Assembly: GCA_023245865.1 (NCBI GenBank)
Contig: JAHFJN010000001.1
Coordinates: forward strand, 186,001 to 250,000
Source: Candidatus Peribacteria bacterium
GTDB lineage: Bacteria; Patescibacteriota; Gracilibacteria; Peribacterales; Peribacteraceae
Direction: 5' to 3'
Length of the DNA stretch: 64,000 nt
Part shown: positions 3,192 through 55,206 of the stretch, in pieces
How the letters are laid out: each line of letters begins with the position of its first letter
Numbering within the stretch: the stretch's first letter is position 1
Notes under the pieces: model-generated
Database searches by the model: none
The model's input: the letters and a program-made list of their open reading frames with translations, nothing else
Told to the model about the DNA's origin: nothing
Made by a program: the position numbers and the translations under genes

Positions 3192-4817
3192 ATGTTTGGT
3201 GTTCGCTTGGAGAGAAACATCAGCGTTTTTCTCATCTCCGTTCTTCTGCCTTTCGGTGTGGGGGGTGCAGGTGTCGCACAGATGCTTCGCACGTCGGATG
3301 ATGCTGTGGTCACCCGTGGTGATTTTGTACGCGCAAGTATCACGGTGCTCGGCATCGAGCAGGTGAAGCAGGGGAGTGTTCCGTCCGGTCGTCGCGTGCC
3401 TCCGGCACTCTTCCCCTCCGTTCGTACGGCCAACAAATACCATGCACTCGATGTCTTTGGGAAAGACCTAGGACTCGCAAAAGGCATCACGCGCGGTGAA
3501 GCGGTGCAGGTACTCGTGAAATTAAAGGAATTAAAAGCCACCAGTACGCCGAAGCATTTTCATGATGTTCAGGCCGGCAGCGATCTCGAAAAGTCCGTGA
3601 ACATCGCCATTCAAGAAAGTTGGATTCAGCCGCTCCGCGATGATTTTTTTGGGGCAGATACTGCTCTCAAAGGGTTGGATGCTCGAGCGATCCTCACGCG
3701 CGTTGCCGGCGACAAAGGGGGCGTGCAGCAAACGCAGTCACCCGGCGGACAAATTCAGATTCAATACAAAGTAAAGGAGAATGTCCAGATTCCAAAAGAA
3801 GATGTGCTCCATACCGTCTGGCAACTCCTCAACAATCAGTATTTGTATCAAGAGAAGATCAACGACGAGGAAGCGGGTTACAAAGCGGCGGAAGCGATCG
3901 TGAACACTTTGAATGACCCATACACCGTGTTCCTGCGTCCTGCGAATGCGAAGGATCTCAAAGATCAACTCGGCGGGGAGCTGACGGGAATCGGTGCGCA
4001 GGTGGAGTTTCGCGATAATGTCCTCACGGTTGTAGCCCCTCTCGCGGGGTCGCCGGCGGAACATGCGGGTATCAAAGCGGGGGACCAAGTGCTCACGGTG
4101 GATGGCAAGAGTATCGCAGGCTTAAGTTTGCTCGATGCCGTCAACAAAATTCGCGGCCCCAAGGGATCCACGGTTTCCCTGCACATACGCCGGAATGGCA
4201 CAGAACTCGACATCAATGTGGTGCGCGACCTCATCAAGCTTCCGGAAATCGATATTTCGCGCCAGGGAACGGTCGTGATCATCAAACTTGCGCAGTTTGG
4301 TGAGACAACGGATCGCAAACTTCGGGGACTGCTCACCGAAGTCGAGCAAAATCGACCCACGGGCATCATCTTGGATTTACGCAATAACCCAGGGGGGCTC
4401 CTGAGTGCAGCGGAAACGGTCATCAGCAATTTTCTCCCGGAGGGCAGTACGGTGGCACACATTCTTTCCACAGACAAAGATGCGGTCGATATCACCTCCG
4501 ATCCACCGACAGTGGATCCGACGATTCCGATGGTTGTGCTCGTCAACAAAGGATCCGCGAGTGCGTCGGAAATTGTCGCGGGTGCTTTGCAAGACGCCAA
4601 GCGTGCGACCATCATCGGCGAACAGACGTTCGGCAAGGGGACCGTGCAGCAGATTCTGCAGTTTAAAGACGGATCCAGCCTCAAGATGACGATAGCGGAA
4701 TGGCAGACACCGAAAAAGCGTAAGATCAACGGCGTCGGCGTCACCCCCGATATCATCATCACGCAAACAGACCAGCGCGATGACCAACTGCTTCGCGCCC
4801 TTGATCTCCTCCGCTAA
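3192..4817 (+). CDS. S41-family C-terminal processing peptidase with PDZ domain
   Basis: PDZ 'LTGIGAQVEFRDNVLTVVAPLAGSPAEHAGIKAGDQVLTVDG'; S41 core 'GIILDLRNNPGGLL', 'VNKGSASASEIVAGALQD', 'GEQTFGKGTVQ'. Confidence 0.93.
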   Translation: MFGVRLERNISVFLISVLLPFGVGGAGVAQMLRTSDDAVVTRGDFVRASITVLGIEQVKQGSVPSGRRVPPALFPSVRTANKYHALDVFGKDLGLAKGITRGEAVQVLVKLKELKATSTPKHFHDVQAGSDLEKSVNIAIQESWIQPLRDDFFGADTALKGLDARAILTRVAGDKGGVQQTQSPGGQIQIQYKVKENVQIPKEDVLHTVWQLLNNQYLYQEKINDEEAGYKAAEAIVNTLNDPYTVFLRPANAKDLKDQLGGELTGIGAQVEFRDNVLTVVAPLAGSPAEHAGIKAGDQVLTVDGKSIAGLSLLDAVNKIRGPKGSTVSLHIRRNGTELDINVVRDLIKLPEIDISRQGTVVIIKLAQFGETTDRKLRGLLTEVEQNRPTGIILDLRNNPGGLLSAAETVISNFLPEGSTVAHILSTDKDAVDITSDPPTVDPTIPMVVLVNKGSASASEIVAGALQDAKRATIIGEQTFGKGTVQQILQFKDGSSLKMTIAEWQTPKKRKINGVGVTPDIIITQTDQRDDQLLRALDLLR

Positions 4818-4823
4818 ATTTCC

Positions 4824-5909
4824 ATGCACCCACTCCTTTCAGAGCTCATCAGTCAGATAGAAGGCCCATGTATCTCCTTGTACATACAGGTACTGCCCGG
4901 AGTCTCGCATGCGGGCGAAAATGAGAAGCGACTCGAGACTGCGCTGCGCGCGTGCGAAACGCGGTTGCACGGCTATGAACTTTCCGAAAAGGGGAGGAGC
5001 CAATTCCTCGCGCCCGCCAGAGCCTATGCGGAGGAACATCTGCGCTGTGGTGTACATGGCAAAACCCTCGCGCTCTTCTTTTCCCCTTCTTTTTTCTCCG
5101 CGTACGTTTTGTCCGAATCTGTGGACCCGTGCACGGTGATTGGCTCGACGTTTCGCATCACCCCGCTTCTGTCCAGACTTCAGGATGGACGACACTATTA
5201 TGTCCTTGCCGTCAGCAAAAAACATGCGCATCTTTTGGAAGTCAGCGACGGTGAAGCGTCCTTCAAGGACGTTGCCGGCATGCCTGCGAGTTTCGAGGAT
5301 GCATGGAAAGGGACCGAGCATTCGTTCGGAGATCACCACGACAGTTCCAAGGATGACGGGGAGATGGAGCTCAAGGTGTATCTGAATCTCATCAGTAAGA
5401 GTCTACATACATTACTCCATGAACAGCATTCGCCCCTGATTTTTGCGGGCGTTGAGGAGTTGCATGGACTTTATCAACATATGGATACCTCGGGAAAATT
5501 ATTGCATGAATACATTCGCGGCAATCCTGACCGCATGGAGGCGAAGGAGATCCTGGAGAAAGCCGAGCCTATCGTACGAACGGCCATTGCGGCAGAGCAC
5601 CGAAAACTTCTTGATTCCTATGGACCGCTGACGGGGACGGGCAGAACGTCGACGGATCTGAGTATGATTCTTGGCAGCGCGCAGGCGGGGAAAGTGGAAC
5701 TTCTTTTCGTCGCAGAAGGCGCACATGAGTGGGGGACATTTGCTCCCGAAACCGGCGCTCAAACATTGCATGAGTCCCAGACCGACAAGAGTGAAGATCT
5801 CCTGAGTACCGCAGCGGTCTTGACGCTTCGACATCGTGGACGAGTGGTTGTGGTTCCGAAAGATGAGATGCCGGAAAAGAAGGAGATTGCTGCAATTCTT
5901 CGATATTAG
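4824..5909 (+). CDS. Bacterial archaeo-eukaryotic release factor (baeRF, eRF1/Pelota-like) family protein
   Basis: N-terminal 'CISLYIQVLPG', 'LSRLQDGRHYYVLAVSKKHAHLLEV' and C-terminal 'LFVAEGAHEWG...VLTLRHRGRVVVVPKDEMP' fit the baeRF layout. Confidence 0.65.
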   Translation: MHPLLSELISQIEGPCISLYIQVLPGVSHAGENEKRLETALRACETRLHGYELSEKGRSQFLAPARAYAEEHLRCGVHGKTLALFFSPSFFSAYVLSESVDPCTVIGSTFRITPLLSRLQDGRHYYVLAVSKKHAHLLEVSDGEASFKDVAGMPASFEDAWKGTEHSFGDHHDSSKDDGEMELKVYLNLISKSLHTLLHEQHSPLIFAGVEELHGLYQHMDTSGKLLHEYIRGNPDRMEAKEILEKAEPIVRTAIAAEHRKLLDSYGPLTGTGRTSTDLSMILGSAQAGKVELLFVAEGAHEWGTFAPETGAQTLHESQTDKSEDLLSTAAVLTLRHRGRVVVVPKDEMPEKKEIAAILRY

Positions 5910-5952
5910 GTCTTGCACGCACATATTCTCTACCCTACACTGCCGCAGCCCT

Positions 5953-9574
<3,622 letters not shown>

Positions 9575-9583
9575 AGAGATCTA

Positions 9584-9661
9584 TTATCGAAGATAGTTGC
9601 TGAGGAGATCCGGCGTAGCTTGGCGAAGTCGGATCGGTGTTCGGAAGAGAGGTTGGGACAT
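9584..9661 (-). other. In-frame upstream mini-ORF duplicating the hisS N-terminus (25 aa)
   Basis: ATGTCCCAACCTCTCTTCCGAACACCGATC... = MSQPLFRTPIRLRQATPDLLSNYLR**; first 9 residues identical to HisRS. Confidence 0.6.
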
Positions 9662-9703
9662 AGCGAAAACGGCTGTGTACGTGTCACACTAGCAGTAAAA
9701 CAA

Positions 9704-9750
9704 CCCCTCTGTCCATCAACCCGTATGTTTGGGTGTATAGGACAGAGAGG
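9704..9750 (-). terminator. Terminator/attenuator-like hairpin in the hisS 5' leader
   Basis: Minus-strand GGACAGAG-type stem (8 bp plus 2 bp beyond a mismatch), inner ACCC/GGGT stem, followed by TTGTTTTA. Confidence 0.5.
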
Positions 9751-9783
9751 CAATGGAACTACCCGGCTGTACGATGACACCAA

Positions 9784-9800
9784 CGTCGCACATTGCGACG
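9784..9800. promoter_or_regulatory. Hyphenated dyad CGTCGCA-cat-TGCGACG
   Basis: Perfect 7-bp arms with 3-nt spacer in the hisS/purD intergenic region. Confidence 0.4.
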
Positions 9801-9829
9801 CCTCTTCTGCTGCCGATACAACCGGCAAT

Positions 9830-9846
9830 CTTGCGACGATCGCAAG
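9830..9846. promoter_or_regulatory. Hyphenated dyad CTTGCGA-cga-TCGCAAG
   Basis: Perfect 7-bp arms with 3-nt spacer, 46 bp from the similar dyad at 9784-9800. Confidence 0.4.
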
Positions 9847-9954
9847 AAGTAGCGGGATGATAAAGACGGTCAAGATGCAATGCAAGCGTGAATGTATTCT
9901 GCGAAGAACAGAGCACTTGCGTAGGTGCAAATTCAAGCATAGCATCCGCCTCCG

Positions 9955-11271
9955 ATGGGTAATTGTACCATTGTAGGGATTACAGACGGTGGAGGCCGCG
10001 GGGACGCACTTGCCGAGGCATACAGCGAACATCATTTAACGGGTACTATTCTTGCCGTACCGGGGAATGATTTAATGCAGAGGAATATTCGATTGGATGT
10101 TGGCTTCATGCGTATTTCTGCTGCGTTACAGTCAGAGAATGCAAAGAATATTGCAGATATATTTGCTAGGAACAGCGTAGATCATGTTGATGTGTGTCAG
10201 GATGATATGGTGTATGGAGATTTGGTCACGGAACTCCAACAGCGGGGAGTCCCTTCGATTGGACCTACGAAGCAGGCTGGAAAATTAGAATGGGACAAGG
10301 CGTGGGCGAGAGCCTTCATGAAAAAATATGAAATTCCCCATCCCTCATTCAACGTATTTTCTTCTGAGGAGGAAGGACGAGCATTTCTTCGTTCTCAATC
10401 TGATCAACCGTGGGCGATCAAAGCATCGGGTTTGGCATTGGGTAAAGGTGTCATCCTTGCGAAGGACACAGGAGAGGCAATCGATGCCGTTTCGAAGATG
10501 AAAAGTTTCGGTGACGCAGGCAAAACTTTTCTGATTGAACAGTATCTGGAGGGGGAAGAATTTTCTGCGTTTGCTGCTTCTGATGGTTCGCACTTTCAGA
10601 TTATTGGCACTGCTCAGGATCACAAGCGCTTGAACGACGGTGATGAGGGACCCAATACAGGAGGTATGGGATGTAGTTCTTCACCCCTCATTGTCACACC
10701 GGACATCTTGAAGCAAGTGGAGCAGATTTTTGCAAAGACGTTCGATGGAATGGCGAAGGAATTATGTCCCTACCGAGGAATTCTCTATCTCGGTGGGATG
10801 GTAGTTGATGGAAAGGTATTCGTCATCGAATATAATTCTCGTTGGGGAGATCCGGAAGCGCAGGTGATCGTCCCAGGTCTTCAGAATTTCCATGAACTCT
10901 CCGAAGCGATTCTTTCAAGGAGGATCGATCAATTCAGACTGGAAACGGATGGAAAGATCAGGGTGGCAGTCGCTCTTGCTGCTCGTGGATACCCTGACAG
11001 CCCCGTGAAAGGGAAAGAAATTTTTGGTATTGAAGATGCACGACGGCAGCGTGGTGTCACTGTCTACGGCGCAGGCGTGCGTAGGGAAGAGGGCCACGAT
11101 TTTACCAATGGTGGCAGATTGCTTTACGTTGTGGGAGAGGGGAGTGACACGCTAGAAGCACAGAGTCTCGCGTACGATGCGATTGATCGCATTCATGTTG
11201 CAGACGATGCAGGCCACTACCGACGAGACATTGGCGATCGTAACATTCTCCGACCAAACAGCGAGGGCTGA
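9955..11271 (+). CDS. purD: Phosphoribosylamine-glycine ligase (ATP-grasp)
   Basis: 'GPTKQAGKLEWDKAWARAFMKKYEIP', 'VIEYNSRWGDPEAQVIVP', 'LEGEEFSAFAASDG' match GARS. Confidence 0.9.
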   Translation: MGNCTIVGITDGGGRGDALAEAYSEHHLTGTILAVPGNDLMQRNIRLDVGFMRISAALQSENAKNIADIFARNSVDHVDVCQDDMVYGDLVTELQQRGVPSIGPTKQAGKLEWDKAWARAFMKKYEIPHPSFNVFSSEEEGRAFLRSQSDQPWAIKASGLALGKGVILAKDTGEAIDAVSKMKSFGDAGKTFLIEQYLEGEEFSAFAASDGSHFQIIGTAQDHKRLNDGDEGPNTGGMGCSSSPLIVTPDILKQVEQIFAKTFDGMAKELCPYRGILYLGGMVVDGKVFVIEYNSRWGDPEAQVIVPGLQNFHELSEAILSRRIDQFRLETDGKIRVAVALAARGYPDSPVKGKEIFGIEDARRQRGVTVYGAGVRREEGHDFTNGGRLLYVVGEGSDTLEAQSLAYDAIDRIHVADDAGHYRRDIGDRNILRPNSEG

Positions 11272-11813
11272 ACGTAGAGCAAATACATCATGATCGTTTC
11301 CGTGATTGTAAAATTGATCGGTTGCAGAGCGTCAGCCAACGTCCATGCGGGAATGGCCGGGAGGGCAAACAAGCAGGAAACAAAAAAGAATGTCCATGCC
11401 GTCCTGTTTTCATAGTGAGGATTTTTGTAGGCCGACACAAAGGTTGGAATCGATCCCAGAAATGTCACCGTCATACTCAGAACAATGGCAAATGTTGCGT
11501 CGGTGGTGAGCCACCAGAGGAAGAGTCCAACCATTCCGCCCAAGAGACAAAAAAGATCCAGCCGCGACCACCCCGGCACGCCGTAGCGAAAGGCAAAAAG
11601 TGCGACGATGCCGGAACCCGCGAGTGCTCCTGTGATCTGTCCGTTCAATGCGTGCTTCGCGAGCATTCCGGCAACTGTGATGCCATCGAGGGACGCCCAG
11701 ATAATCCATGATGCTTTTGTGGGATGTGAGGACCCTCGTACCATGCCAAGGACATAGGGAACATAGCCTACAAAAAGCAGGATTCCCGCTACGATAGTGA
11801 ATATGTGTTGCAT
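11217..11813 (-). CDS. Multi-pass membrane protein of unknown function
   Basis: MQHIFTIVAGILLFVGYVPYVLGMVRGSSHPTKASWIIWASLDG..., about 6 TM segments; start chosen downstream of the tRNA. Confidence 0.7.
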   Translation of the reverse strand: MQHIFTIVAGILLFVGYVPYVLGMVRGSSHPTKASWIIWASLDGITVAGMLAKHALNGQITGALAGSGIVALFAFRYGVPGWSRLDLFCLLGGMVGLFLWWLTTDATFAIVLSMTVTFLGSIPTFVSAYKNPHYENRTAWTFFFVSCLFALPAIPAWTLADALQPINFTITETIMMYLLYVQPSLFGRRMLRSPMSRR

Positions 11814-11831
11814 AGAGAACATTTGTTGCAA

Positions 11832-11910
11832 TGGGGCGAGCGATGGGACTCGAACCCACGACCCTCTGGACCACAACCAGATGCTCTAACCAAACTGAGC
11901 TACGCTCGCC
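11832..11910 (-). tRNA. tRNA-His (GTG), with encoded G-1 and CCA
   Basis: Cloverleaf by eye: acceptor G-GCGAGCG/CGCTCGC-C-CCA, anticodon stem TCTGG-TTGTGGT-CCAGA, T arm GGGTTCGAGTCCC. Confidence 0.92.
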
Positions 11911-11952
11911 ACGGCCGTGGCATCGTAGCAGTTCTTTTCATGGTTTTACATG

Positions 11953-13953
11953 CTACTTTTTCCCCTCATCCTCTTTCTTCTTTTCCTCCAAACTCTCCGC
12001 TCGAATAATCGCAATCGGCAGATCGCTCGGGGCGGGGGTCGGAGTGGGGGCCGGGTTTGGGTTCGCAAGCGCAGCGGGCGCCGGTGAAACAGGTTTTGGT
12101 GTAGCGGGAGCCGCAGGAGGCGTAGCCGGTGTTGCAGGTGCGACTGGTTTTGGTGCTGGCGGAGGTGCTTGAACCGGTTTTGCGGGCAGAGGAGGAGTGG
12201 GGGTCGGAGTGGCTGTGGGTACAGGTGGAGGTGCCGAAGGTTTTGGCGAAGCAGCAGTCGTTGCACTCGGTGTGGGAACAGCTGCTTTTGGTGTTTGTCC
12301 CGTCGCAAGCCACGGAGGGAGGGGGGCGGTGGGGGTGGGAGTTGGTGCCGGGGCCGGTTTTGGGTTTGAGTTTGGAAGCGAGACAGGCGTGACGGGAGCC
12401 TTTGGGGCCGCAGGTGGAGCGGAAGGTGCCGGTATTGGCGTGGGCTTTGGGATTGGGTTCGGGTTCGGGTTCGGACTGGGAGTAATGGGCGGCTTCGGTG
12501 TAGGTGCCACAGCACTGTCACCCAGTCCTTTCTTGAGCCATGCCGGGGCAGCGTCGGTATCGATTTTCGGTGTCGTAGAATCGACAGGTGTTTGTTTCTG
12601 CTCCTCGCGCTTGCTGATTTCTTGCTGCGTGGGTGCGGCCTTCGATGTCATCGGCGCACCGACAGTCGGAATCGTCAACGGAGGTGCAGATACGGATGTC
12701 GCTTTTGTTTCGTCTTTCTTCAGGATGTTCTTTTCCAGCGTTTCAAATGTTTGATCGAGTGATTTTCCTTTTCGCATGCGAAGCAGCCATGTCACAGCGC
12801 CGATGCCGATGAAGAGGCAGAGTACGAAAATGCCTATGAGGATCACAATCGACGTCCACGATCTTCCGCTCGTCGACATGACAGGTGACTCCGATGATGC
12901 ACTGGAAGTTTCCACGCTCTGTGCGCTACTTGCGACCGCGCCGCCTTGTACGACGACATCTTGCTGCTTTGTCGCGATCACCTTGCCGTCGAGGAGGTTG
13001 CGGACTTCAATTTTCACGGTGTACGTGCCGCCTTGCGCGTACGTATGCGCAGGATTTTGCAGCAAACTTTCTTGACCGTCTCCGAAGTTCCAGTGGAAGA
13101 GCAGCGGCGAGGTGGAACCCATCTCGACTTCCGCCCCGAATGTGTAGTCAAGATTGGAAACGGGCGTCACGGTCATTTGCAGAGGACTGATGAGTAGTCC
13201 TTGCTGCATCGCATACGCTTCGTCGAGCACGGTCACTTCCTGTTGAACGGCCGCGCCGCTCACTCCCACCGTCGTCACAATCATTGTTCGCGTCGTGATC
13301 GGGGTTGTAAACCAGATCGTGACAGGGGAAGCGTATGTTTGGAAGAATGTATCCCGATCATCAAGGTCGTTGCGTGGATTGCCGTCGCCATCGGAATCCT
13401 GCGATGCGTCCAGATCAAGTGCGAGCGGCTTCAGGTCGGGGTTGAGAGGATCCAATCGCACGAGCTGTTTGGTTGTTTTCAAAATGACGTGTTTGTTGCT
13501 GTCCATCGCAGGGAACGTGCTCACGAGATTCACAGATCCGGTGCCTGTGACTTCCGGCGCAGGAGGGCTACCGGTTGTGCCATCCCGCGGTCGCATCGTT
13601 ATCTCAAATGTGCGATTGATTTTTGTCGACCCGTCCCCCGATGCGATTTCCGCAAGCAACGTATAATTGCCGGGCTGAATCAGGCGTGCGGTAAATTTCG
13701 GTGCGCGGCTCGCTTGGAGAAAGGTACGGTCTTGCGTCAGGATCCACGAGTACGTCGGATTCGCAATACCGACGGACGGGAGAATCTCCAGAATGTCACC
13801 GACGAACAGATCGATGTCTTCGGTTCCGGACTCCGCCGCACTCGCAGTGCTGCTGCTTTCGGCATTGCCCTGCGCCATCGCGATCGGAGTTGCTCCGAGC
13901 GACAGAACAAGCGATGATGCGAGAATGCCGGAAAGGAGGGAGTGCAATCGCAT
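11953..13953 (-). CDS. Secreted PKD-domain protein with single TM and long Pro/Ala/Thr-rich C-terminal tail
   Basis: Signal peptide; 'FGAEVEMGSTSPLLFHWNFGDGQESLLQNPAHTYAQGGTYTVKIEV' = PKD; TM 'IVILIGIFVLCLFIGIGAVTWLL'; low-complexity P-rich tail. Confidence 0.8.
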   Translation of the reverse strand: MRLHSLLSGILASSLVLSLGATPIAMAQGNAESSSTASAAESGTEDIDLFVGDILEILPSVGIANPTYSWILTQDRTFLQASRAPKFTARLIQPGNYTLLAEIASGDGSTKINRTFEITMRPRDGTTGSPPAPEVTGTGSVNLVSTFPAMDSNKHVILKTTKQLVRLDPLNPDLKPLALDLDASQDSDGDGNPRNDLDDRDTFFQTYASPVTIWFTTPITTRTMIVTTVGVSGAAVQQEVTVLDEAYAMQQGLLISPLQMTVTPVSNLDYTFGAEVEMGSTSPLLFHWNFGDGQESLLQNPAHTYAQGGTYTVKIEVRNLLDGKVIATKQQDVVVQGGAVASSAQSVETSSASSESPVMSTSGRSWTSIVILIGIFVLCLFIGIGAVTWLLRMRKGKSLDQTFETLEKNILKKDETKATSVSAPPLTIPTVGAPMTSKAAPTQQEISKREEQKQTPVDSTTPKIDTDAAPAWLKKGLGDSAVAPTPKPPITPSPNPNPNPIPKPTPIPAPSAPPAAPKAPVTPVSLPNSNPKPAPAPTPTPTAPLPPWLATGQTPKAAVPTPSATTAASPKPSAPPPVPTATPTPTPPLPAKPVQAPPPAPKPVAPATPATPPAAPATPKPVSPAPAALANPNPAPTPTPAPSDLPIAIIRAESLEEKKKEDEGKK

Positions 13954-13957
13954 AGGG

Positions 13958-14293
13958 TCAGGTAGCTTGGGAAGCCAAGTAGACGGTGACGAAACTGACG
14001 ATGACCTTAGAGAAGAGAACCACGATGAGGCCGATCAGCGTGTACTGGATGATCTTTTTCGCCTTTTCCTTCGCCTCTTCCTCTCCGAGTCCCAGAATCA
14101 AGTAGAGTCCTGCGATCACAATCATCGTGACGGCAATGAGTGCGAGGAAGTTGAGGAGTGCGTTCAGAATTTTGGTTGCGATGTCGCGGACATTGCCGTT
14201 TGCAACATTGGCGATACTGTTTGTTTCCTGGATTCCCACTTTGATTCCGCCACCGTTATACACCTGTGCCAATAGTGTGTTTGGGTTCCACAT
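13958..14293 (-). CDS. Small two-TM protein resembling TrbC/VirB2-type pilin
   Basis: 'ILNALLNFLALIAVTMIVIAGLYLILGLGEEEAKEKAKKIIQYTLIGLIVVLFSKVIVSFV' topology typical of VirB2/TrbC-like proteins; 4 bp from the PKD gene. Confidence 0.6.
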   Translation of the reverse strand: MWNPNTLLAQVYNGGGIKVGIQETNSIANVANGNVRDIATKILNALLNFLALIAVTMIVIAGLYLILGLGEEEAKEKAKKIIQYTLIGLIVVLFSKVIVSFVTVYLASQAT

Positions 14294-14347
14294 TTCTTCT
14301 TATTATAGCATGAATTCCATCATCATGCTACCGTGCTTGCAAGACCT

Positions 14348-15340
14348 ATGCGTCTCGCAGCCCGGACCGTACTCAAGGCAGCAAATACATCTGCACTTCT
14401 AGTGAGTGATCTTGTCAATGTTCGGTATCTGACGGGCGTATGTGTGAGTAGTGGCGTGGTTCTTGTATTGCCATCCTCTTTCCTCTTTTTCGTCGACAGT
14501 CGTTACAGAGAAATGGCTGAAGAAAACCGATTACCCGGCGTGTCGGTTCGTGACATCGCTGGTCTGGAAAAGGCAATGACGACAGTAAGAATATGCGGGT
14601 TTGAATCTGCGCATGTGACAGTTGAATCGTTGCAGCGCTGGAAGAAGAAATTTAAGAATACAAAATTTGTTCAAGTAAGGGGGGCAGTGGAGTGTTTCCG
14701 TCGTTCGAAAGACAAAGAAGAATTGCTCTTGATCGGTCGCTCCGCACGCATCACCGCGGAGTTGCTCCGACGTATTCCCGCGAGTCTCAGAGCCGGTATC
14801 ACCGAACGCGCACTCGCATGGAAGATCGAGCAGTGGGCGCGGGAACTTGGAGCGGAGTCGATGTCGTTTGATCCGATCGTCGCGTTTGGCGCGCACACGA
14901 GTCGTCCCCATCATCGGCCCACTACCAAGCGTTTGCAGCGCGGGCACATCGTACAAATCGATATCGGTGTGAAGTACCGCGGCTACTGCAGTGATCGGAG
15001 TTGTGTGTATTTCACGGGAAAAATTTCCGCTGAGTACAAGCGTGCTTATCAAGCTGTACGCGAAGCGAAAGATACGGCAAAGCGAGCGGTGAAGGCGGGG
15101 ATGTCCACTCGAGCACTCGATCGCATCGCACGTGATGTTCTGAAAAAATACGATATGGAAAAATATTTCACGCATTCGCTCGGTCACGGTGTCGGTCTGG
15201 AAATTCACGAAGGTGTGTCACTGTCGGTCAGCAGTTCCGACGAAAAATTACGCAAGGATGAAGTCATTACTATCGAGCCCGGAGTGTATTTCCCCGGCAA
15301 ATTCGGCATCCGTTTGGAGGATATGGTTGTGGTGGCATGA
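14348..15340 (+). CDS. M24-family metallopeptidase (Xaa-Pro aminopeptidase-like)
   Basis: 'VQIDIGVKYRGYCSDRSCVYF', 'HSLGHGVGLEIHEGVSL', 'VITIEPGVYFPGKFGIRLEDMVVV'. Confidence 0.92.
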   Translation: MRLAARTVLKAANTSALLVSDLVNVRYLTGVCVSSGVVLVLPSSFLFFVDSRYREMAEENRLPGVSVRDIAGLEKAMTTVRICGFESAHVTVESLQRWKKKFKNTKFVQVRGAVECFRRSKDKEELLLIGRSARITAELLRRIPASLRAGITERALAWKIEQWARELGAESMSFDPIVAFGAHTSRPHHRPTTKRLQRGHIVQIDIGVKYRGYCSDRSCVYFTGKISAEYKRAYQAVREAKDTAKRAVKAGMSTRALDRIARDVLKKYDMEKYFTHSLGHGVGLEIHEGVSLSVSSSDEKLRKDEVITIEPGVYFPGKFGIRLEDMVVVA

Positions 15341-15367
15341 AGACAGTTTTTCTGGTACAATGATCAG

Positions 15368-16744
15368 TTGAAGCAGCATCCAAAACACACACCGAAACAT
15401 ATCGTGTTCATCATTGTGAGCATTGCTCTTTTGAGTCCTGTGTGGGCTGCGGGTGAGCAAGCTTCACCGAGTGCACATGAACAAGATTTCATCATCACGG
15501 CGTATTACTCGCCCCTGCCCGATCAATGTTGCTACGTGACGGGGAGTTACGAGACCGATCGTATTTTGAATGGAAACGGGAGGACATCCGCAGATGGCAC
15601 GTCTGTTTACCCTGGGATGATAGCGGCACCTTCGACCTATGCATTCGGGACACGTGTACGCGTGCCCGGTCTTGGGAATTTCACGGTGCACGATCGCGGC
15701 GGCGCGATCTTGGAACTCGGACAAACACACCGTCTCGATATCTGGGCGGGAGTCGGTGAAGAGGGGCTTGCGCGAGCTCTGGCATTTGGTGTGCGTCATG
15801 TGAGCGGTATGGTGTATCCGGATGGATCCGATCAGCCGCCGGAATCTTTTCAGCTGATGCAGATTCCTGCGCCAATCGAGGAGCTCACTCCGTATATGGT
15901 GAGTGACACAGATTTACTCGGCATGCATCCGAAGCTCGGAGATCGCAGCCTTTCCGTTTCGCTCTTGCAACAGCAACTGAAGAAGGCGGGAGTGTTTGCG
16001 GGGCCAAGCACGGGCATCTTTGGGCAGTCGACACAAGCAAGTCTGATGCAATTCATGAGTCTCTACCGCCTCGCTGGATCTGGGACGGAGCTGAGCGATC
16101 GAACGGCGGCGTTCTTGATTGCCTCCAATACGATGACCAAAGAGAAGTCTCCCGTCGGTTTCATCGGTGCGGGGAGTTCGCAGAGTGATATTCAACAGGC
16201 CGAGCGGTTGCTTCGGTATCTCGGGTACTACCGTGGACGTACGGACGGTGTGTACGGTGAGCGGCTGGTGACTGCGATCGTTAAGTTTCAACAGGAGCAG
16301 CAGCTTGTCGCTGACAGCGCATCTCCCGGTGCCGGGAAAATCGGACCGCGTACGAGGCAGGTATTGGTGTCGAATTGGCAGAGACTTCAGGTCGGCAAGC
16401 GCGCTGAGCGATTCCTCGCTCTCAAGCGCGTGCGTGACATTCTTGTGAAGAAAGAGGAGCTCGTGAGTCGGCTCCTCAGCAAAGGGAATCGCGGGTCGGT
16501 CGTTTCGGCTCTTCAGAAATTTTTATCGGTGCGTGGATTTTTTCCGCACAACAAAATCAACGGCAATTACGGGATACTCACGCGTGAGAGCGTCCTTGCC
16601 TATCAACTGGATCGCGGCGTGATCGCGAGCACCTCAGAGAATGGCGCGGGGACGGTGGGTCCCCTCACGCTGAAAGCACTGCGAAGCGAACAGGTACGTG
16701 AGGCGTACAAAATTGTGAGGGAAAAAGGGTGGAATGCGCTCTGA
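15368..16744 (+). CDS. Secreted 3D-domain protein with peptidoglycan-binding repeats (TTG start)
   Basis: Signal peptide; 3D-like 'TAYYSPLPDQCC...GTRVRVPGLGNFTVHDRGGAI...LDIW'; PG-binding-like repeats 'VSLLQQQLKKAGVFAGPSTGIFGQSTQASLMQF'. Confidence 0.8.
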   Translation: MKQHPKHTPKHIVFIIVSIALLSPVWAAGEQASPSAHEQDFIITAYYSPLPDQCCYVTGSYETDRILNGNGRTSADGTSVYPGMIAAPSTYAFGTRVRVPGLGNFTVHDRGGAILELGQTHRLDIWAGVGEEGLARALAFGVRHVSGMVYPDGSDQPPESFQLMQIPAPIEELTPYMVSDTDLLGMHPKLGDRSLSVSLLQQQLKKAGVFAGPSTGIFGQSTQASLMQFMSLYRLAGSGTELSDRTAAFLIASNTMTKEKSPVGFIGAGSSQSDIQQAERLLRYLGYYRGRTDGVYGERLVTAIVKFQQEQQLVADSASPGAGKIGPRTRQVLVSNWQRLQVGKRAERFLALKRVRDILVKKEELVSRLLSKGNRGSVVSALQKFLSVRGFFPHNKINGNYGILTRESVLAYQLDRGVIASTSENGAGTVGPLTLKALRSEQVREAYKIVREKGWNAL

Positions 16745-16766
16745 AAATACGGCATGATGAACGTCC

Positions 16767-17870
16767 ATGCATTCGCGTTTTTTCCTCTCTCTTTTTTCGT
16801 TCCTTTCTTTCTTCTATTGCTTTGGTTTTGCCCAGGCACAATCTTCCCCCATAACACGCGAAGCAGGATTTCTTCTCATCTGGCAGCCCCTCCACCGAGC
16901 GATTGACAATGTCCGCGAAAAACAATTTCTCGACATTCCAGACGGCGATTCCCATGCGCGTGAGATTCGCTTTGCGAAGTCTCGTGGTGTCCTGGATGAC
17001 GAAGATTCGAAATTTTACCCGAACGATGGTTTATACATTCTCGATGCACTCACGTGGCTGTTTCGCAGCAGAAATGTCGATGATGTCGATAAGATAACAA
17101 AAGAACGGTTGTATGTGTACCTGACAAAGTATCCGCTCCCTTCCGGTGATCATTTGATTGCATGGGAACCGGATTACGGTTCTGGGGAGCTCCTCAATCG
17201 TGCAGGCACTACTCTTGTAACTGAAGAACAGTTGCAATCCTTGATGCGAGATCTTGATTCTGCCTTACGCGACGAAGTTCATGAAGCGAGTATGTACGGC
17301 GAGGAATTCCAAGGAAAGGGCACGGCGTTTGGCGAAACCTTCGACATGAATTTGCTCACAGCCGCACATCGAACCCTTCCGTACAACACCCTCATGAAAG
17401 TGACGAACGTCGACAATGGCAAAAGCGTCACCGTGCGAATCAACGATCGTGGTCCGTATGTCAAAGGTAGAGATTTAGATTTGAGTGTCGCAGCATTTAC
17501 ATCGATTGCAGATCGCAGACTCGGTAAAATTCATGCAACGTTCGAGCGTATCGGTGATGCGACAATTGTCGGTCCGTGTGTGCAACCAGGTACGCGCCAG
17601 CAACGGATCACGCGTTCGACCATTCTGAATCCCGGCATTCCTCATATTCTGCATCTCGGTGACACGATGACCATTTCCTCGAGCAAAGCATTCGTGATTC
17701 GTTCGGTACGGTATCCCGATGGCAACGACACGCGACTTGAGAACTGGATCTTGTCTCGCGAAACATACTCGTTCAAGCCCTCCGTCGAAGGCGATTACAA
17801 ATTTAATTTATCATCTGTCAATGGACACAAGAGACAGATGGAAATGCGGGTGGTGGATTGCTCAAAATAG
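16767..17870 (+). CDS. RlpA-like double-psi beta-barrel septal protein
   Basis: Signal peptide; 'ASMYGEEFQGKGTAFGETFDMNLLTAAHRTLPYNTLMKVTNVDNGKSVTVRINDRGPYVKGRDLDLS' is the RlpA DPBB signature. Confidence 0.88.
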   Translation: MHSRFFLSLFSFLSFFYCFGFAQAQSSPITREAGFLLIWQPLHRAIDNVREKQFLDIPDGDSHAREIRFAKSRGVLDDEDSKFYPNDGLYILDALTWLFRSRNVDDVDKITKERLYVYLTKYPLPSGDHLIAWEPDYGSGELLNRAGTTLVTEEQLQSLMRDLDSALRDEVHEASMYGEEFQGKGTAFGETFDMNLLTAAHRTLPYNTLMKVTNVDNGKSVTVRINDRGPYVKGRDLDLSVAAFTSIADRRLGKIHATFERIGDATIVGPCVQPGTRQQRITRSTILNPGIPHILHLGDTMTISSSKAFVIRSVRYPDGNDTRLENWILSRETYSFKPSVEGDYKFNLSSVNGHKRQMEMRVVDCSK

Positions 17871-52361: not shown

Positions 52362-52571
52362 TTACGAAGCGAGTCGTGGACGCTGATCTTCATCAGTGTC
52401 CTGTTGGCTCTGGGGGTTGTTTGGAGGGACTTCCGACCGACGAACTCTAACTGAAGTCGGTGCTTCGATGCCCAGCCTCACACGATTTCCTTCGATGCTG
52501 ACAATCTTGACTTTGATTGTCTCGTCGTCGATGTAAATCGTCTCCCCAGGTTTTCGTGACAGAACCAACAT
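52362..52571 (-). CDS. csrA: Carbon storage regulator CsrA
   Basis: MLVLSRKPGETIYIDDETIKVKIVSIEGNRVRLGIEAPTSVRVRRSEV... canonical CsrA. Confidence 0.95.
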   Translation of the reverse strand: MLVLSRKPGETIYIDDETIKVKIVSIEGNRVRLGIEAPTSVRVRRSEVPPNNPQSQQDTDEDQRPRLAS

Positions 52572-52637
52572 AATTCGGATCCTCCGAAGTGAACTGTTCC
52601 GACTCGATCTCCAGATCAAGCAACACGGAACATGGCA

Positions 52638-52665
52638 AGTATACAACAATCAATGATTGTATCAA
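52638..52665 (-). promoter_or_regulatory. csrA promoter TTGATA-16-TATACT with dyad ACAATCA-a-TGATTGT in the spacer
   Basis: Direct minus-strand reading; dyad at 52646-52660. Confidence 0.55.
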
Positions 52666-52782: not shown

Positions 52783-53589
52783 TTACTGAAAGCGAAAGCT
52801 CCTTCTCGTCAAATACAGCATTGTACCAAGCGTAGCAGCAACCGTGATCCAGGTTGCCGGACCCGTTTCGGATTGCTCGGAGGGCATGTGGCTTACGATG
52901 TCTGCTGTCTGTCCACCCGTTTGTCTCGGCGGCAAGGAACTTTCTCCATTTCCAACGGTGTGAGCGTTTTGCGGGATTGCGGGTGACGTCGGGTTTGGGT
53001 TCGCAGAAGGAATGTTTGTTATGGGGGCAGAGATCATTGCCGAGGGAATGGCATTCGGGTTGGAGGGGGTGGGTGTTGGAACTGGGATCGGGTTTGAATT
53101 GGAGAGAGTCGCAGGGCTCGTAGAGATCACAATTTGTCCTGAGATATTCTTTGATGTTTTTGATATGTACATGTACGTGCCCGGACTTGCATTCAGAGGA
53201 ATCAGGATATGCGTGCTGCTTCCTTGAAACAGAGGAGATGTTTCAAAATGGTTGTTGTCCGCGGTGGGGAGTGAATCGGATGTCAGTATGTGGGGGATGG
53301 TGCTTTCATTGACCCACGTGACGGTGTCACCCGGTTGCACGGTGATCGTCGCCGGATCTAAGCTTTCTTGCTTAATGTGAATCAAATTCGGGGAATTGGA
53401 AAGCTGCCCGCGCAAACTCGAAAATCCTTGGATCAAGCTGAAGCCGATCAGTGCAAAGAGCGCGATGCCGGTAAGGGCCGCAGGCCTGCGTGAAGCGGGG
53501 AGAGGTTCACTCTTTGACTTTGTGCTGATGCGCACAGGACGTTCCTGTGACTCATCCTCCGCTTGCCAGTGAGGATGCATGGTATTCAT
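52783..53589 (-). CDS. Surface protein with degenerate cupredoxin (plastocyanin-like) domain, P/N-rich stalk and C-terminal TM
   Basis: 'IHIKQESLDPATITVQPGDTVTWVNESTIPHILTSD...GTYMYISKTSKNISGQIVI'; C-term 'SETGPATWITVAATLGTMLYLTRRS'. Confidence 0.8.
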   Translation of the reverse strand: MNTMHPHWQAEDESQERPVRISTKSKSEPLPASRRPAALTGIALFALIGFSLIQGFSSLRGQLSNSPNLIHIKQESLDPATITVQPGDTVTWVNESTIPHILTSDSLPTADNNHFETSPLFQGSSTHILIPLNASPGTYMYISKTSKNISGQIVISTSPATLSNSNPIPVPTPTPSNPNAIPSAMISAPITNIPSANPNPTSPAIPQNAHTVGNGESSLPPRQTGGQTADIVSHMPSEQSETGPATWITVAATLGTMLYLTRRSFRFQ

Positions 53590-54866
53590 GATACAAGTAT
53601 ATGGCGTGCAGAAAGCTGACGTCGGAATGCCAATGTTGTTCCGATAACGGCAGACAGTATGAGGAAGAGACTGATGCTTGATGGTGCGCCTGTTTCACCG
53701 GAGAGCGAGCCGCCGGTGCGGGGAGTCTTCGGTGATTTTTGCTTAAGCACCGCAGCGGTGAGAGGAGACGTCGACGTCGCGGCATTTCCCACACTGATAC
53801 CAACCTCCTGGCTGAAGTCTGTCTCCTGATTGGCCGCATTCACACCGCGCACGGCGAAGTAATACGTGGTTGCGACCGGCAGCGCGCGGATCGTGATGCT
53901 GGTCGTATTTTTGTCGACGCTGCGGCGCTGGATGTATTTTCCTGAAATCGTACCGTAGTAAATGTTGTAGCCAACAAGCTCCTGAGACGGCAATTTGTCC
54001 CATGCAAGAAACACAGAGCTTCCCTCGGTGGTCACTCGCAGTCCCTGGATCTGGAGAAGTGTGAAGACACTCGTGGAAGGCTTGGAGGTGATCGGACTCA
54101 GTTTTGGAGCGGAAAAGGCAGAGGTGGCAACAGAACTCGGACTTGAGGTTGCAGGTGCAGAGGAAATTGCGGACGATGCAGATGCAACGGATGTGTTCAA
54201 TTGAACGATCAGCGAGCCGAGGTTCGCAGCCGCAATGTTCGTTTCCTGCGTGCCGCTCTTTACAAAGATGCCCGTGTGACTGTCCAGCTTGCCGGAAGCG
54301 TCATAATAGGACATCGGTGTCGACGCGGCGCTCGGGTGCAGAACATGCATGCGGATGTGCGCGAGGACGACAGTGTCACCCGATTGAGGTTTTGTCGCAG
54401 TACCGCTGAGTTTTACATAGCCGTCCGCCACTGAGAAATTCATTTCGCCCGGATTCGGTGTCGGGAACTGCGTGCTGATCTCGATCTTTTCACCCTCAAG
54501 CACCGTCGAGTCATACGCGATCCACGCGCGGAAGCGTTGGATCGGTTGATGCGTCGGATTATGGACAATCAAATCCATGTCGAGCGGGTCTCCCTCATTC
54601 AGCACGTCCGTTTGTCGCGTCAGCGGATCGCGTACGGCATACGATCTGCATGTTTCCGGAACCGGATCGGTCATGTGCGTGGAGGGAGGAAGCGGGCCGC
54701 CAAAGACATTCTCACCGAGAAATACGTTACAGTGCGGACGCAATTCAAACGTCGTCTGCTGCGCCTGTGCCAAAGCGACTACCGGCATTGCGATTGCCAA
54801 GATACTTATGGCGAATATCGTCACCGAGCTGCATTGCCGATGAGCGGCGCGTGTAAGGTGCATCAT
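53586..54866 (-). CDS. Cohesin-like domain + fibronectin type III surface protein with C-terminal TM anchor
   Basis: 'EGDPLDMDLIVHNPTHQPIQRFRAWIAYDSTVLEG...GTATKPQSGDTVVLAHIRMHVL' cohesin-like; FnIII 'GLRVTTEGSSVFLAWDKLPSQELVGYNIYYG'; 'SGETGAPSSISLFLILSAVIGTTLAFRR'. Confidence 0.72.
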   Translation of the reverse strand: MMHLTRAAHRQCSSVTIFAISILAIAMPVVALAQAQQTTFELRPHCNVFLGENVFGGPLPPSTHMTDPVPETCRSYAVRDPLTRQTDVLNEGDPLDMDLIVHNPTHQPIQRFRAWIAYDSTVLEGEKIEISTQFPTPNPGEMNFSVADGYVKLSGTATKPQSGDTVVLAHIRMHVLHPSAASTPMSYYDASGKLDSHTGIFVKSGTQETNIAAANLGSLIVQLNTSVASASSAISSAPATSSPSSVATSAFSAPKLSPITSKPSTSVFTLLQIQGLRVTTEGSSVFLAWDKLPSQELVGYNIYYGTISGKYIQRRSVDKNTTSITIRALPVATTYYFAVRGVNAANQETDFSQEVGISVGNAATSTSPLTAAVLKQKSPKTPRTGGSLSGETGAPSSISLFLILSAVIGTTLAFRRQLSARHILVS

Positions 54867-54870
54867 GGTG

Positions 54871-55206
54871 TCAGCGGATCGACAGGTCGTTCAAAATACG
54901 AATGGCATCGTCAATCGTCAGATGACCGTCGCTATTGGGGTCAGCGAGCAGTTCATCGGGTGTTGCAACGCTGTAGCCGCGCGCGATCTCGAGAATCTGA
55001 ATTGCATCACGAACTTCAACGATACCGTTTCCATCGATGTCGCCACTGGTGCGTAGGCCCGTTGCTCCAATGGATCCGACAGTATGTACCTCTCCCGCGG
55101 TTTTGATGCCGACCGTGAACGAGGAAACGACTGCGAAGAGTCCGAGCATCACATAGGTTACAGGCGTGGACCACGAGCGCGATTGTGTGTGTTTCTTTGT
55201 TGGCAT
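54871..55206 (-). CDS. Dockerin type I domain membrane-anchored/secreted protein
   Basis: N-terminal TM then 'GDIDGNGIVEVRDAIQILEIARGY...ADPNSDGHLTIDDAIRILNDL', two Ca-binding dockerin repeats. Confidence 0.88.
   Translation of the reverse strand: MPTKKHTQSRSWSTPVTYVMLGLFAVVSSFTVGIKTAGEVHTVGSIGATGLRTSGDIDGNGIVEVRDAIQILEIARGYSVATPDELLADPNSDGHLTIDDAIRILNDLSIR

Follow-up and report, generated by a model that had tools for sequence, protein, structure and literature searches.

A conserved cohesin–dockerin operon of Peribacteraceae, a probable non-cellulosomal surface clip reduced from a larger operon

The window analyzed here is a stretch of 64,000 nucleotides lying within a 1.07-Mb contig of a Peribacteraceae-type patescibacterium, whose genome measures 1.1 Mb. 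The listing of its open reading frames contains three on the minus strand that overlap or nearly abut, here called DOC, COH, and CUP (Table 1). Four bases separate the stop codon of DOC from the ATG of COH, and the COH stop overlaps the ATG of CUP in the sequence ATGA; the compact three-gene arrangement described in a first-pass annotation of this DNA is thus confirmed with its boundaries. The operon is followed, on its own strand and a short distance downstream, by a gene for a CsrA-family regulator (PF02599, E 2.5e-20) at window positions 52362-52649.

Table 1. Genes and modules of the operon, in window coordinates
Feature	Position	Strand	Description	Basis
DOC gene	54871..55206	-	111 aa; N-terminal hydrophobic helix and C-terminal type-I-like dockerin	
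DOC N-terminal hydrophobic helix	55096..55170	-	Residues 13-37; membrane anchor or uncleaved signal	AlphaFold2 helix, alignment
DOC dockerin module	54877..55047	-	Residues 54-110	Profiles, AlphaFold2, Foldseek
DOC calcium loop 1	55006..55041	-	D56-D67, DIDGNGIVEVRD	Position 1 D in 67/67 orthologs, position 12 D in 66/67
DOC calcium loop 2	54907..54942	-	D89-D100, DPNSDGHLTIDD	Positions 1 and 12 D in 67/67 orthologs
COH gene	53586..54866	-	426 aa; signal peptide, PHC..C pair, cohesin, FN3, C-terminal TM tail	
COH cohesin module	54195..54641	-	About residues 76-224	Pfam in relatives, AlphaFold2, Foldseek
COH FN3 module	53775..54071	-	About residues 266-364	Pfam fn3 3.6e-7, above cut-off
COH C-terminal tail	53607..53705	-	GETG-hydrophobic-RRQ, possible sorting signal	Alignment
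CUP gene	52783..53589	-	268 aa; N-terminal TM, cupredoxin-like domain without Cys ligand, C-terminal SETGP-TM-RR tail	
CUP cupredoxin-like domain	53125..53406	-	Residues 62-155	Cupredoxin_1 2.8e-4, TIGR02656 2.3e-6, both below cut-off

Family-level profiles were used for the domain assignments, because single-protein Pfam and NCBIfam scans are too weak to settle them. A single-protein scan of the genome contigs gave no match, and the Pfam search of the host's own genome lists neither a cohesin nor a dockerin since the single-sequence scores fall under the cut-off (E=0.2 for DOC against Dockerin_1, E=0.027 for COH against Cohesin). A 14-row subset of the 55-row alignment was taken, the full 55 rows being too diverse. 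Among relatives, Dockerin_1 (PF00404) matches 46 of 50 DOC proteins at E<=1 (best 6.6e-9), and Cohesin (PF00963) matches 47 of 55 COH proteins at the same threshold (best 2.9e-10). The dockerin-family profile also reaches solved dockerins, e.g., 2y3n_B at 8e-7, and the cohesin-family profile reaches solved cohesins, e.g., 4ums and 1g1k at 0.002. In the AlphaFold2 models, the dockerin, cohesin, and FN3 modules have pLDDT values mostly above 90. By profile and by predicted fold, the identity of the cohesin and of the dockerin is secure at the family level.

The DOC protein has two calcium-loop–helix repeats with D or N at positions 1, 3, and 5 and D at position 12, and the EF-hand segments quoted in the first-pass annotation are indeed present. 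A conserved GIxTAGxVxP follows the N-terminal helix in the ortholog alignment. The top Foldseek matches of the DOC model are dockerins, superimposed with an rmsd of 1.2-1.7 A over about 60 residues; their E-values, 0.014 and above, are modest, in keeping with the small size of the domain.

In PDB, the COH model comes closest to 2w1n, where the cohesin and FN3 of GH84C from C. perfringens form a double module (E 6e-13), and further matches (5lxv_A, 6kgc_A) include cohesins from cohesin–dockerin complexes. The first-pass annotation had made its cohesin call dependent on a cohesin fold in this product; the fold is present in the AlphaFold2 model and recognized by Foldseek. The FN3 module proposed at the same time is detected by Pfam in the window protein itself, and in 49 of 55 COH relatives. 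Mean identity across the family is 53% for FN3 versus 37% for the cohesin, and this conservation suggests a constrained binding surface on FN3, which, as the most conserved module, may be the effector end of the protein. In many relatives, e.g., at loci L103, L080, and L097, cysteine-rich repeats with EB/DUF7107-like matches are inserted between the cohesin and FN3; they are absent from the window COH.

The third gene had been annotated as cupredoxin-like. This description stands for the fold and fails for the copper site: no aligned CUP ortholog has Cys at the position of the copper ligand, and the ligand His is retained in only 29 of 45, i.e., replaced in about a third. CUP is therefore not a working blue copper protein, and a role in blue copper electron transfer was ruled out. 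The C-termini of COH and CUP share a tail of the type (S/P)xETG-P-TM-RR, with the family consensus VPGETGxPS..TM..RRQ in COH. The COH tail reads PGETG-TM-RRQ, not LPXTG; the host genome encodes two sortases, and cleavage of the COH and CUP tails is putative.

Conservation of the locus was surveyed in 74 genomes of the family, representing 40 genera, with 72 loci inspected. DOC is present in 70 of the 74 genomes; of the other four, two belong to a single genus (G019 and G046) and two are only 66% and 75% complete. COH with its FN3 module and tail occurs at all 72 loci, DOC lies directly 5' of it on the same strand, at a distance of -38 to +53 nt, at 69, and CUP directly 3' of it at 71. So broad an occurrence of DOC, together with the same gene order at nearly all loci, means that the arrangement is not due to chance; the operon belongs to the core loci of Peribacteraceae throughout the family, with synteny kept in related genomes. 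One detected dockerin and one cohesin is the usual content of a family genome, and additional dockerins, on large proteins encoded elsewhere in the genome, were seen in a few relatives (G055, G011, and G049). In the genus of G019 and G046, DOC was not found at the two loci (L074 and L073, respectively) and COH and CUP are kept, a natural experiment for COH without its presumed partner; COH must therefore have some value independent of DOC.

Few known reversible protein clips match the strength of cohesin–dockerin pairs, which are calcium-dependent and almost always treated as parts of cellulosomes. Our preferred reading, to which we give a probability of roughly 0.6, is that the operon provides the Peribacteraceae cell surface with a dedicated cohesin–dockerin clip, single-copy and non-cellulosomal, and is itself reduced from a larger operon. 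The N-terminal helix of DOC would insert the protein into the membrane and leave the EF-hand module on the outer side, where calcium would fold this module. For COH, the signal peptide would direct export, and the hydrophobic, sorting-type C-terminal tail would hold the protein in place. Docking of the dockerin onto the cohesin would then tie a membrane-inserted protein to an envelope-held one and present the strongly conserved FN3 module. CUP may act as a membrane-bound, co-expressed structural partner free of copper. A tether between membrane and envelope is less obvious because a single membrane may hold both anchors. The binding of DOC to COH and its calcium dependence, the membrane topology, the fate of the tails, and the biological role are, in this scheme, what we infer from the modules and their arrangement.

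The survival of COH in the genus lacking DOC and the extra dockerins on large proteins in the three genomes named above could also be read in another way, with COH as a docking receptor for dockerins of other proteins or cells and DOC capping it as a competitor, chaperone, or placeholder. We consider this unlikely, as the only dockerin detected in the window's genome and in most relatives is the adjacent one, and the strict conservation of the operon fits a stoichiometric partner.

Co-evolution of the two modules was also examined, and the mirror-tree result counts against the clip. The mirror-tree partial correlation between DOC and the cohesin, given FN3 and CUP, is 0.086 and not significant (77/500), while that between DOC and FN3 is 0.38, so that DOC distances track FN3 rather than the cohesin; positional mutual information between DOC and COH was uninformative, being underpowered at Neff 50. 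In an alternative reading, the modules are homologous to cohesins and dockerins but would no longer bind each other; DOC would be a small membrane protein that binds calcium, COH-FN3 would be an adhesin in its own right, and the two would be co-conserved only via a shared pathway. The lack of specific DOC–cohesin co-evolution, the higher conservation of FN3 than of the cohesin, and the loss of DOC without loss of COH all agree with this. However, the EF-hand loops are near-invariant and the helices conserved, and the placement of a dockerin beside a cohesin recurs across the phylum in very different architectures; we regard loss of binding as improbable, to about the same degree as the receptor role of COH.

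Module identity by itself would also allow a small cellulosome-like degradative complex, and in Shapirobacterales, another CPR lineage, cohesins and dockerins were interpreted as a cellulosome (PMC9123182). For the operon described here this is very improbable: DOC carries no enzyme or catalytic domain, the operon includes neither a scaffoldin array nor a glycoside hydrolase, and the genome holds one cohesin and one dockerin. The dockerin-tagged hydrolases that such a complex predicts were searched for in the window's genome and none was found. A cellulosome was therefore rejected, with one module of each kind in the genome and no multi-cohesin scaffoldin, in agreement with the first-pass annotation, which had proposed a non-cellulosomal assembly in view of the missing hydrolase and scaffoldin array.

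The comparison with known systems places the proposed clip among non-cellulosomal uses of these modules. The type-I pairs of cellulosomes in C. thermocellum, R. flavefaciens, and A. cellulolyticus have the same two-calcium-loop dockerin, in sequence and structure, and the same cohesin fold, but the window system consists of single modules and has no scaffoldin, carbohydrate-binding module, or enzymes. Closer to COH are the non-cellulosomal enzymes of C. perfringens (GH84C, 2w1n), where FN3 likewise follows directly after the cohesin. There, however, large secreted glycosidases carry the modules as tails, whereas the window operon encodes no enzymes and both partners are small, present once per genome, encoded in one operon, and equipped with membrane or sorting anchors. 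Published dockerins and cohesins of CPR bacteria are described singly or as a presumed cellulosome in the pertinent sections of PMC10633639 and PMC9123182. These concern the same modules in the same phylum, and in those sections neither a linked dockerin–cohesin operon nor a minimal pair is described. According to the same part of PMC10633639, the dockerin protein SEML1_0315 is essential in an epibiotic patescibacterium, which suggests importance at the surface. Giant cysteine-rich extracellular proteins, large, exported, and proposed to serve in attachment, were reported for Peribacteria, the lineage of the window, in PMC4736985; this paper does not mention cohesin, and its passages on these proteins do not single out the operon. 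The operon is a real, conserved, and previously undescribed form of non-cellulosomal cohesin–dockerin systems, in that a search of open-licence papers returned none describing it, though earlier reports of such pairs in CPR-like lineages may exist.

Sister families in the same class have a much larger form of the operon. It starts with a TM protein and a giant protein of 560-1300 aa ending in a dockerin, followed by a giant Ig-like/TIG protein (1260-2459 aa) that ends in one or two EF-hand repeats, then by a lipoprotein of about 190 aa that has a lipobox and a cohesin as its only module, and by the cohesin–FN3 protein; the position of CUP is occupied by a TM protein whose tail is of the xGP-TM-RR type. 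The single or double EF-hand repeat of the second giant protein (ADLNGDGKVDFxDFTxFSxVYG) precedes a Pro-rich tail and is seen at L208 (4420-9531), L209 (5439-9512), L218 (5556-12935), and similar loci. This end is probably a half or full dockerin, and the dockerin proteins and cohesin proteins of the operon would therefore number two each. The giant-type operon is also retained in G039, a genome assigned to the window's family. A maximum-likelihood tree places this genome next to the 53 other family members sampled, which group together as a clade (93/97). The window operon thus looks like a reduction in which the giant proteins and one cohesin were lost and a dockerin stub was retained on a membrane helix; we infer this course of change from the tree and from how widely the giant form is distributed. 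In terms of the surface clip proposed above, the three-gene set would be the reduced descendant of the giant-protein operon that sister families still have.

On the scale of the phylum, Pfam Cohesin was found in 76 and Dockerin_1 in 102 of 287 Patescibacteria genomes, and several other families encode dockerins and cohesins in one operon of different architecture. A dockerin ORF adjoins the cohesin ORF at 16 of 20 loci picked mostly for linkage and at 6 of 20 picked only for cohesin; of these 40 loci only the second 20 are free of linkage selection, and some of them are cut by contig ends. Where a dockerin-only ORF and a cohesin ORF are neighbors, the dockerin ORF lies 5' of the other in 19 of 20 cases. 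We tentatively suggest, with somewhat less than even confidence, a non-covalent surface display common to Patescibacteria, where a dockerin-ended surface protein is encoded directly upstream of at least one small, membrane- or lipid-anchored single-cohesin receptor and such clips hold giant envelope proteins, the Peribacteraceae operon being the minimal reduced form. A near-universal single-copy pair in a family with genomes of about 1 Mb, together with the gene order seen in the phylum, suggests a general way of mounting envelope proteins in Patescibacteria, possibly those used for host attachment, and the operon offers a small, expressible two-protein system in which such mounting can be tested directly.

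A different arrangement occurs at another patescibacterial locus, L251 (G336:C27, positions 3870-17359), where five consecutive dockerin-ended proteins, one with a cellulase/apiosidase-like domain and one with a beta-helix, are followed by an ORF of 939 aa with two cohesins and a terminal dockerin; this array is scaffoldin-like and cellulosome-like. A similar two-cohesin ORF of 969 aa is present in the genome G362, which has dockerin arrays on other contigs.
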